DNA of 64,000 nt from a bacterium (lineage in GTDB: Bacteria; Bacteroidota; Bacteroidia; Chitinophagales; Saprospiraceae). Shown in pieces: positions 1-30,363 of this stretch; within the stretch, counting starts at the first letter, position 1; each line of letters opens with the position of its first letter. Position numbers and translations under genes: made by a program. The notes beneath the pieces were generated by a model, which had not been told where the DNA came from, did not search any database, and was given only the letters and a program-made list of their open reading frames with translations. The DNA lies in the NCBI GenBank assembly GCA_024742755.1, contig JANSXW010000014.1, positions 1 to 64,000 on the forward strand, given 5' to 3'.

Positions 1-1031
1 CAATAAAATTGAGGTTGGGTGCACCGGAAAGTGGCGCGTTTATTACTGTTGCCGTTTCTCTAATCAAACTTAAGTTGAAACCATTTAAAACACCCCCACT
101 CAAAGCGGCAGCATTGACCATCCGCCAGGATTTGAACCCGCTGGGGTAAACATCATTCAAGATGGCATTTCTGATCCCTATTTGATCAAGCGTGGTCACT
201 CCGTTGCTTAGATTGAAGTCCGCAGCAACAAACTCCCAGGGATTCGTAAATGGAAACGAGCCTAGGATATGCCCGGAAATCCGGACAATATCGGCATCAT
301 CCAGGCCACAGTCTGGTTCGGAAAGATCATACTCAGGGCTTACCAGATAGTCTTCTCCATCGAGTACGGTACCGGAATAATCCCCTGCCACATCTGTTTG
401 AACAATTAAAGGGGTAAGGCCCGGCGCACTTGTGCTCGAGATGGTTACCGTAGCATCGGCTAAGCTTTGGTTGATAGAGCCCATGCAATTTTGAATAGCA
501 GTAATCTTCCCGGAGAGGGTGCTTCCTCCACTGAAGGTGCAAGAGGCACTAGGATTGAGGAATGTGGGTGCGCACTCATCTCCAATAATCTCAACAGGAT
601 CGAAAAAAATTATCATTGCTGAGTTATCTATCGTTACGTCAACGGTAGCTCCAAAGTCTCCTAAAAAACTAAAGGTAAACAGTGTCAATCCAGTACCTGA
701 AAATGACGGCAGCTGAAAGCCAGAAAAGTTTGTTTGATTTACTGTAATTAAATTGGTTGGCGAAACAGTCAGGTTATACCCCCCTGCTGCGGCAAGCTCA
801 CTTCCAAGTGTGGCATTAAGGTTGCTGCCATTGGAGGATACAACAACTGTCACGTTGAGACGAACTAAATCATCAGTAGGCGGACTAAACATTCTCACCT
901 CATAGCTATCGCAGTCGCTGCCCGTCTGTATCAAAGCGATAACTGGATCAGTACAAGTCTGAGCGAATATCATAACACTAGAGAGGAGAAGAGAAGAGAA
1001 GAGAAGAGAAGAGAAGAGAGAATTTCTTCAT
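1..1031 (-). CDS. Secreted dockerin-like protein, 5' part only, currently out of frame (phase-variable candidate)
   Basis: The gene runs off the left edge. The ATG at 1031-1029 begins MKKFSLLFSS, but its frame meets TAG at 980-978 after 17 codons. The frame that stays open from 985 to base 1 (about 328 codons, no stop) continues as SSVMIFA-QTCTD, an ideal signal-peptide end. The two frames are separated only by a GAGAA repeat tract (981-1020): 7 or 4 units would join them, and the 6 present do not. The mature part is rich in T, S, N and G. Near its visible end it has a dockerin/EF-hand-like segment (AADFNLSNGVTTLDQ, about 215-170), as in Saprospiria extracellular proteins. A T9SS sorting domain would lie off-window. 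A shorter start at the in-frame ATG 973-971 would lack a proper signal peptide. Function unknown; export is inferred. Confidence 0.72.
981..1020. repeat. Pentanucleotide simple-sequence repeat in a signal-peptide coding region
   Basis: Six perfect GAGAA units (986-1015) are flanked by one variant GAGAG unit on each side; on the coding (minus) strand this reads (TTCTC)n. The unit is not a multiple of three, so gain or loss of a unit changes frame. Translation of the tract gives alternating L, F and S, which suits a hydrophobic signal-peptide core in any frame. This is the classical design of a slipped-strand contingency locus. Confidence 0.85.
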
Positions 1032-1051
1032 GGCGTTTGAATTTATACGCA

Positions 1052-1072
1052 CTTCGAAAGTGCTTTCCGAAG
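1052..1072 (-). other. Short inverted repeat in the leader of the phase-variable gene
   Basis: CTTCGAAAG and CTTTCCGAAG are complementary apart from one bulged base and lie about 20 nt upstream of the ATG at 1031. The hairpin would form in the 5' leader of the minus-strand mRNA. Its role is unknown; it could be an operator or a translational control element. Confidence 0.3.
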
Positions 1073-1188
1073 TATGGCATGTTAAGTAAAAAAGATTACA
1101 AAAGAGCATGCTGTTGACCAGCACTGTAAAAGTACCAAATCCCAGAACATTGTTGAAGCAGAAACGCCCTTTTTAACAGTGACTTTTG

Positions 1189-28413: not shown

Positions 28414-28614
28414 CTATTCTTCTTCGTCTTCAGGCTTTCGGTCCTTCAGTTTTTTATCTTCTACGTTCTTATCCAGAAATTGATTCAGTTTTTCGACATC
28501 AAGGTTTGAAGATATTTCTCCAAATTCATTGATTTTTATGTCAAAGCCTTTCAAATCCTTATGTACCCCGGGCTGCTCTTCTTTTTCTTCTTCTTTATTT
28601 TTTTTCCTGGACAT
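28414..28614 (-). CDS. Small highly charged protein, unknown function
   Basis: 66 residues. The ends are strongly charged (MSRKKNKEEEKEEQPG and a tail ending EDEEE), and between them is a conserved-looking core (FDIKINEFGEISSNLDVEKLNQFLDKNV). No signal peptide or membrane segment. It follows gltX by 12 bp on the same strand, so it is very probably co-transcribed. Small acidic proteins of this kind are widespread hypotheticals in Bacteroidota; no function is known to me. Confidence 0.72.
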   Translation of the reverse strand: MSRKKNKEEEKEEQPGVHKDLKGFDIKINEFGEISSNLDVEKLNQFLDKNVEDKKLKDRKPEDEEE

Positions 28615-28626
28615 CGGCTCACTATT

Positions 28627-30363
28627 TTAGGATTGTACAATGCGGTCAAACGCTTCAAACCCGATTTTCAACCGGGCTACGGCTTCCTCCTTCCCCAACA
28701 GTTCCATCATTTCGAAGATCGCCGGCCCTTTCATGGTGCCCGCCTGCGCCAGGCGCAACATTGGCAGCACATCCCCAAACTTGAGTTCGTACTTTTCCAT
28801 AAACCGCTCCGCAGCGGCTTTGATCTCATCCGCAGAGAAGTTGCTCAGCTGCTCCATATCCTTAACGAGTTCGGCAAACTGTTCGCTGCGTTCCGGCTGC
28901 CAGCGTTTTTGAATCATTTTCTCTTCGTAACTCCGGGGGCGCTCAAAGAAGTAGTAACCGTTTTCCCAAAATTCGGGCAGCGTCACAGCCCGCTCTTTCA
29001 TCAGGCCGACAAAGCCCTCCACGAAGGCATCAGAAGCCTCCTGACCATTGGCTTCCAGTATTGGACGGACGAGCCGGGCCAGGCGGGCGTCCTCCGCTTT
29101 GATCATGTACTGCTGATTAAACCACTTCGCTTTGTCGATATTGAAGCGGCTGCCCGATTTGTTGATCCGCTCGGGCGTAAAGGCGCCCACCAATTCTTCC
29201 AAAGTAAACATTTCCTGCTCATCACCAGGGTTCCAGCCCAGCAGCGCCAGGAAGTTGAGCACCGCTTCCGGCAGGAAACCGTACTCGCGGAAGCCCGTAA
29301 AGCTGTCTTCTGCCGTTGCACCCTTCCACGAGAGCGGGAATACCGGGAAGCCTAAACGGTCCCCGTCCCGCTTGCTGAGCTTGCCATACAGCGCACTTTT
29401 GAGAAAGGCTTTGAAGGCAGCCTTATCAGCTTGATCTTTTTCTTTTTCTTTCAGATTGGCAGGAATATTTTTCTTATCCTGGAAAGTTTGCAGGGCGAAG
29501 GCCTCCGCTTTATAACCCGCATGCTCCGGGTGCTTACGGGCAAACTCCTCTGCCATCCGGCTCGCCATCGCAGGAATTGCAGACTTGTCGAGGTAGCTTT
29601 CCGGCGCAGGCTTCAAGATGAGCGGCAGGTGGGCAAAAGCCGGCATTTGCTGTTCCCAGCCAAGGCTTCGGTAGAGCAGAACGTGGTGCGCCGTGCTCGA
29701 CAGCCACTCTTCGCCCCGCACCACATGAGTGATTTCCATCAAGCGGTCATCCACTACGTTTGCCATATGGTAAGTAGGCATGCCATCGGCTTTGAGCAAG
29801 ACTTTATCGTCCAGCTCAGTACTGTCAAAGGCAACTTCTCCCCGCACGATGTCTTCGAAGCGTATCGTCTCGTTGTCAGGCACTTTGAGGCGTACAACGT
29901 GCGGCACGCCTTTTTCCAGAGCCGCCTCTACTTCCTCCGCGCTCATGCTGATGCTGTTGCGCATGCGCATACGGGCAGTGGCATCGTATTTGAACGTCGG
30001 GTCTTTTTCCCGGGCCAAGTCCAGCTCTTCAGAAGTGTCGAACGCATAGTAGGCATGGCCTGAGTCGATCAGTTGCTGCGTGTACCTGAGGTAGATATCC
30101 TTTCGCTCCGACTGACGGTAAGGGCCAAAGTCGCCGCCAATGCCCGGCCCTTCGTCGGGCGTAATGCCCAACCACTCTAGTGCTTCAACAATGTACTGCT
30201 CTGCACCTTCAACATAACGGGTCTGATCGGTATCCTCGATACGGAGGATGAAGGTGCCGCCGTTTTTCCGGGCCAGCAGGTAGTTGTAAAGTGCGGTACG
30301 GACACCGCCAATGTGTAGTGCGCCGGTGGGGCTGGGGGCAAATCGAAGCCTCATATTTTCCAT
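28627..30363 (-). CDS. gltX: Glutamate--tRNA ligase with an unusual insertion
   Basis: 578 residues, longer than the usual 470-510. The class I signature is PSPTGALHIGG (His17) and the KMSKS-type loop is KLSKRDG (328-334). Between LPLILKPAP (about 246-254) and KLSKR lies an extra stretch of about 73 charged residues (AEEFARKHPEHAGYKAEAF, KEKEKDQADKAAFKAFLK) that standard enzymes lack, since they run directly from LKP to GKLSKRDG. The reading frame through the insert is clean. The enzyme charges tRNA-Glu (and tRNA-Gln if the cell uses the amidation route). It heads an operon with the small charged protein. Confidence 0.95.
   Translation of the reverse strand: MENMRLRFAPSPTGALHIGGVRTALYNYLLARKNGGTFILRIEDTDQTRYVEGAEQYIVEALEWLGITPDEGPGIGGDFGPYRQSERKDIYLRYTQQLIDSGHAYYAFDTSEELDLAREKDPTFKYDATARMRMRNSISMSAEEVEAALEKGVPHVVRLKVPDNETIRFEDIVRGEVAFDSTELDDKVLLKADGMPTYHMANVVDDRLMEITHVVRGEEWLSSTAHHVLLYRSLGWEQQMPAFAHLPLILKPAPESYLDKSAIPAMASRMAEEFARKHPEHAGYKAEAFALQTFQDKKNIPANLKEKEKDQADKAAFKAFLKSALYGKLSKRDGDRLGFPVFPLSWKGATAEDSFTGFREYGFLPEAVLNFLALLGWNPGDEQEMFTLEELVGAFTPERINKSGSRFNIDKAKWFNQQYMIKAEDARLARLVRPILEANGQEASDAFVEGFVGLMKERAVTLPEFWENGYYFFERPRSYEEKMIQKRWQPERSEQFAELVKDMEQLSNFSADEIKAAAERFMEKYELKFGDVLPMLRLAQAGTMKGPAIFEMMELLGKEEAVARLKIGFEAFDRIVQS

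Follow-up and report, generated by a model that had tools for sequence, protein, structure and literature searches.

Here we describe a gene at the edge of a bacterial contig that is very probably an opa-type contingency locus working by strand slippage, in which a run of TTCTC pentamers in the signal-peptide coding region would set whether a predicted secreted protein is made. The window, i.e., the whole 64,000-nt stretch analysed, begins at base 1 of its contig (G000:C102); the gene lies on the minus strand there and is truncated by the assembly, with no stop at that point. Judging from the sequences compared, the anatomy of the locus is real, conserved, selected and switch-like, and the switching itself is what we infer from it. 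The features are as follows.

1029–1031, minus strand: start codon ATG of the putatively switched gene (MKKFSLLFSS...); the adjoining ATGAAGAAATT is also conserved in Phaeodactylibacter xiamenensis
981–1020, minus strand: array of eight units, the first and last being variants (CTCTC), encoding the predicted hydrophobic core of the signal peptide
1020–1016 and 985–981, minus strand: the CTCTC end units of the array
986–1015, minus strand: candidate slippage tract of six perfect TTCTC units, defined by TRF and unit-count simulation
978–980, minus strand: TAG stop reached in the present six-unit (OFF) state
2–985, minus strand: ON frame, open for 328 codons past the tract up to the contig end (LSSVMIFA-QTCTDP...)
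971–973, minus strand: internal ATG in the ON frame, whose product would have no signal peptide
1045–1074, minus strand: inverted repeat (hairpin) directly upstream of the start codon

Reading from the ATG at 1031 on the minus strand, the order is ATGAAGAAATT, CTCTC, six TTCTC, CTCTC and TAGTGTTATGATATTCGCTCAGACT, with the (TTCTC)6, flanked by CTCTC on either side, 16 nt after the ATG. A preliminary description of the same DNA had placed six perfect pentamers and two variant units between the ATG and a 328-codon open frame; the coordinates agree, and the frame is real, though cut off by the contig start. The present six-unit product is MKKFSLLFSSLLFSSPL, 17 codons in length, and codon 18 is indeed the stop (TAG 980–978). 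Since the unit is 5 nt, not divisible by three, the unit count sets the frame. When the number of perfect units was varied in silico, the gene was open at 1, 4, 7 and 10 units and closed at 0, 2, 3, 5, 6, 8, 9, 11 and 12, which bears out the prediction that one unit more (7) or two fewer (4) would open it. The opened ATG frame reads ...SSVMIFA-QTCTDP... and is stop-free until the contig end. The tract had also been described as lying in the signal peptide and as L/F/S-rich and tolerant of length change in every frame: its position checks out, and all three frames are stop-free. The internal ATG named there at 973 corresponds to minus-strand 973–971 and shares the ON frame, with the signal peptide absent. 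These results support the slipped-strand ON/OFF interpretation given in that description.

The repeat is perfect, short, tandem and within the 5′ coding region, and only OFF copies of this gene were seen. TRF reported it at 980–1019 (period 5, 8.0 copies) with a score of 73, the top of 29 rows in the window, and no other (TTCTC)≥4 occurs in either orientation in the 6.95 Mb draft assembly (92.5% complete, 436 contigs). The hydrophobic core of the ON-state leader has a best 12-residue Kyte-Doolittle mean of 2.12, and the predicted FA-QT cleavage site was read by eye. Two other low-complexity repeats of the window were rejected as ordinary: 28577–28606 codes for the first, K/E-rich part of a 66-codon minus-strand frame, and 29435–29451 lies within a 578-codon minus-strand frame.

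Upstream of the start codon, the hairpin at 1045–1074 (minus strand) comprises an inverted repeat of ~10 bp (RNA −11.4 kcal/mol, z −3.1). P. xiamenensis has a hairpin at the corresponding place with paired base changes, as judged by eye (z −2.3), and a paralogue described below has a weaker one (z −2.0). Scanning of 900–1300 gave no match to a sigma-70-type promoter and one terminator-like site (1124–1108), against 0.5 expected.

The proposed mechanism is that replication adds whole units to the TTCTC tract or removes them, slippage being the presumed source of length change. With a 5-nt unit, a gain or loss of one would shift the frame read from the ATG, and one count in three would join the signal peptide to the mature protein. 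Because the tract encodes L, F and S residues without a stop in every frame, every ON length would retain a hydrophobic export signal. ON cells would export the product by Sec and then, through the type IX secretion system (T9SS), deliver it to the surface or medium, as suggested by the C-terminal domain of the orthologue. The change would presumably be reversible, the product may be located at the surface, and a mixed population may benefit.

The window copy is without its C-terminal part, so the sorting domain was read from the orthologue alone. In that full-length protein, the C-terminus matches the T9SS type A sorting domain TIGR04183 (42 bits against a cut-off of 23), in line with the T9SS assignment guessed earlier. 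The orthologue's C-terminal 235 residues had no close match in the window assembly (best E 4e-7, 35%); the end of the contig within the gene would be accounted for by a collapsed shared repeat. In its middle part, the window protein is similar to a domain widespread in the group, with 18 matches in its own genome (the protein itself counted) and matches in 32 of 59 genomes (again counting its own). AlphaFold2 modelling of the orthologue, from an alignment with just the window copy, reached a mean pLDDT of 34.5, and the fold was not usable for a search. A solved-structure search returned three weak matches only: two at the C-terminus, named Endonuclease I (E 0.019) and Por secretion sorting domain (E 0.15), and a third at E 0.91. 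No relative was found in viral contigs.

The orthologue, from the marine, alga-associated P. xiamenensis KD52 (L022; taken to be G001:C20, which is L052), is 89% identical and was the sole relative in the contig search. NCBI places KD52 in the Haliscomenobacteraceae, Saprospirales, and its source was a diatom culture according to the available part of the record (PMC4263839). Gene order is conserved: 7.4 kb upstream aligns with KD52 at 91% identity. The orthologue's leader consists of ATGAAGAAATT, seven perfect TTCTC units and TAGTGTTATG, such that the arrays differ by one unit overall (eight versus seven) and by base changes in the end units. It is also OFF, ending after 18 codons, in the other wrong frame.

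Past the tract, comparison of the two genes over 323 codons gave dS 0.372, dN 0.070 and dN/dS 0.187 (bootstrap 0.108–0.297), with 68 synonymous and 49 non-synonymous differences and zero stops; constraint is weaker in one 60-codon stretch, codons 120–180 (ratio 0.485). Between two distant homologues, G004:C303 (ON, 5 units) and G002:C52 (OFF, 7 units), dN/dS is 0.128, with synonymous sites near saturation. Between species, the tract thus differs as six units plus two variants versus seven, and as five versus seven. As read from the substitution pattern, the frame past the tract is under purifying selection, though OFF in both Phaeodactylibacter genomes. Phase variation predicts that a gene is conserved by purifying selection even when both genomes have it OFF, which matches this observation.

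P. xiamenensis also has a paralogue, G001:C3 (L053), with a repeat-free leader (MKKYAFLFSAFFFTGIIVSVQA) and 58% identity to the window protein. G001:C20 and G001:C3 show no difference over aligned codons 480–540, whereas their N-terminal windows are strongly diverged, and this pattern suggests gene conversion between the apparently switchable and the repeat-free gene.

We then surveyed 398 genomes of the family for (TTCTC)≥4 and found 13 sites in 11 genomes, with one or two loci per carrier genome. At 12 of the 13 sites, an ATG precedes the tract by 8–37 nt and the coding strand reads TTCTC; no gene is attached to the G290 tract (8 units), and G417 has the correct start and then a contig end after five units. 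The 13 sites are not all independent, as the genes of G000 and G001 are homologous, as are the two of G004 and that of G002. Among the 11 readable genes, four are ON (G004:C303, G004:C356, G020:C11, which has an additional, shorter open frame, and G388) and seven are OFF (G000, G001:C20, G002, G020:C80, G202, G221 and G401), a ratio compatible with a frame set at random (binomial test against 1/3, p = 1.0). At BLASTP E 0.001, the proteins of G000, G001, G002, G004 and G388 form one loose family, and those of G020:C11, G020:C80, G202, G221 and G401 match no other in the set; at least six gene families, mutually unrelated at this threshold, carry the tract. Its occurrence is lineage-specific: (TTCTC)≥4 is present in one of the 21 genomes from G401's genus and in one of the 14 from that of G388. 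As a control, we used TTTCC, the only other cyclic class of identical composition. The same 398 genomes contain a single (TTTCC)≥4 site (9 units), outside any open frame of >80 codons.

Several carrier products have predicted export features. The TIGR04183 cut-off was passed by four of the nine non-window carrier proteins scanned, namely the orthologue and three others, and the products of G202 and G221 appear lipoprotein-like, with a cysteine after the leader as judged by eye. Sub-threshold matches were to a dockerin in the related carrier G388 and to metallopeptidases in G401 and G020:C80. In a relative of the G401 protein (L173, G367; ATG at 1408), three copies of the octamer TTCATCGC follow directly after the ATG and may represent a further type of signal-peptide repeat.

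A sister repeat, (TTTTC)≥4, was found in the leaders of at least five genes, ON in G001:C18 and G020:C136 and OFF in G191, G080:C52 and G253; these sites came from an ATG-anchored search and hence give no independent word on position. We tabulated 18 tract genes with TTCTC or TTTTC, including two from another family (G661 and G461). Seven are ON, near the third that a frame set at random would give, and 11 are OFF, with OFF products ending after 15–31 codons. A one-unit change opens 11 of the 11 OFF genes, which is partly arithmetic (a 5-nt unit and one open frame); the absence of an intervening stop and the long frame that lies behind are not automatic.

TTTTC also occurs in the leaders of two G388 homologues from congeneric species, which are not among the 18. 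That of G317 (L182, minus strand 188–207) has (TTTTC)4 and is OFF from its ATGAAA start; that of G380 (L180, 1430–1464) has (TTTTC)7 and is OFF from ATGAAA and open from an alternative ATG 43 nt further upstream, its state depending on the start used. Since G388 itself has TTCTC in this leader, the repeat type changes within the gene family while its position stays. Among the homologues whose leaders were checked, G367:C86, G268 and G374:C291 (an imperfect TTTTC-like run) lack such a tract, and four (L175, L176, L181 and L192) were not confidently readable.

A search relaxed to three units (ATGAA, 0–30 nt, (TTYTC)3) returned 71 distinct sites in 55 of the 398 genomes, and the reversed-pattern control returned 20 matches in 19 genomes (tally by eye). 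Three units are therefore not specific, and the table admits arrays of four or more. We read 21 of the 71 sites (ten TTCTC sites, ten further regions and G001:C18), and others of at least four units are possible among the remaining 50. The four-unit rule excluded one OFF gene, G080:C117 (3 units), and five three-unit ON genes: G000:C42, G001:C26, G000:C435, G020:C100 and G020:C119. Two of these are counterparts, L163 (G000:C42) and L169 (G001:C26), with three TTYTC units, equal length and both in frame, L163 running off its contig end; such leaders are a possible short seed for a tract of this kind.

Across the phylum, six of 395 genomes have the TTCTC repeat, the window genome among them. G661 is a clear signal-peptide case and is OFF, and in G461 the tract is at a gene start with a doubtful signal peptide. 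In G665 (L122, minus strand 2179–2258), (TTCTC)16 lies in a 758-codon open frame, ~42 codons after the start and behind an apparently separate leader. G745 (L119, 2046–2240), from another Bacteroidota family, has satellite-like (TTCTC)25 and (TTCTC)13 adjoining a CATCA-type pentamer array, apparently non-coding, and the G556 tract is non-coding. The association with signal peptides is strong in the Saprospirales family surveyed and mixed elsewhere.

Could the gene simply be dead in Phaeodactylibacter, with a frameshifted leader that does not switch and a remainder that decays slowly? Both orthologues are OFF, and the paralogue with the repeat-free leader, 58% identical to the window protein, could have taken over. 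However, a dN/dS of 0.187 over 323 stop-free codons, with 68 synonymous against 49 non-synonymous changes, is at odds with decay, the orthologue's tract is perfect and of different length, and the design is retained in G004:C303 (ON) and G002:C52 (OFF) at dN/dS 0.128, with synonymous sites near saturation. We thus regard a dead gene as very unlikely. For an origin in sequencing or assembly error, the 436-contig draft and the contig end within the gene might argue. The separate P. xiamenensis genome has the tract with a different unit number, OFF states with the same anatomy recur in unrelated genes of other genomes, and an array of 30–40 nt is shorter than ordinary short reads, leaving only a minute chance of such an artefact.

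Alternatively, the ribosome or RNA polymerase might slip on the tract, so that protein would be made at any DNA length by programmed or transcriptional frameshifting. The tract is repetitive and pyrimidine, and the majority of tabulated carriers (11 of 18) are OFF. Yet a programmed shift of constant size does not account for two orthologues in different frames, and the four ON among 11 family TTCTC genes fit a random frame (p = 1.0); we consider frameshifting highly improbable. The preferred reading remains a change of unit number in the DNA.

Opa proteins are outer-membrane barrels, and their leaders contain LLFSS repeats, resembling the LLFSS leader of the window gene. According to the available text of PMC3960869, Neisseria opa genes phase-vary through CTCTT repeats located where the leader is encoded. 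Rotating CTCTT gives TTCTC; in both systems the repeat is in the leader-coding region, and the unit number sets the ON or OFF frame. In contrast to opa, the present genes belong to a different phylum, their proteins are unrelated by Pfam, with no Opa-type domain found in the window protein or the orthologue, and predicted export is by T9SS or as a lipoprotein rather than as an outer-membrane barrel. Locus number also differs, with one or two TTCTC loci per carrier genome versus 11 opa genes in a gonococcal strain (as given in the available part of PMC11868660). By these comparisons, the likeness is convergence of mechanism, not membership of the Opa family.

Two further systems are related more loosely, as far as the available parts of their sources describe them. 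Helicobacter pylori oipA has a CT dinucleotide repeat in its 5′ region (PMC10564699); as proposed for the present locus, it is a surface-protein gene with a 5′-region repeat and slipped-strand ON/OFF control, but its unit is a dinucleotide, and the protein and phylum are others. Phase variation in Bacteroides, the same phylum, also varies surface features, but it is driven by invertases through DNA inversion (PMC11868660, a 2025 review), whereas repeat-number frameshifting is proposed here. Literature searches, mostly without subscription journals, gave zero matches for Saprospiraceae with phase variation and zero for phase variation with T9SS, tandem repeat and frameshift; among the matches listed, none dealt with phase variation by repeats in Saprospirales or in T9SS cargo.

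Collectively, our results lead us to favour, with more reserve than for the single locus, a general and repeatedly re-invented phase switch in Saprospirales. TTYTC pentamers would have grown within signal peptides whose proteins, T9SS cargo and lipoproteins, are otherwise unrelated, and the convergence with opa of Neisseria would extend to the repeat unit itself. The repeat would preferentially settle in the signal-peptide core, where a change of length does no harm given that all frames encode L, F and S, and TTCTC and TTTTC would be swappable within a gene family. If so, gene callers can miss OFF genes or label them pseudogenes. As an isolate that has been cultured, P. xiamenensis KD52 allows a direct test of the switch. 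An opa-like switch on the T9SS cargo and lipoproteins of environmental Bacteroidota would mean convergence to the repeat unit, would provide stochastic surface variation in free-living or alga-associated bacteria, and would raise phage, grazer or surface-attachment pressure as possible drivers.
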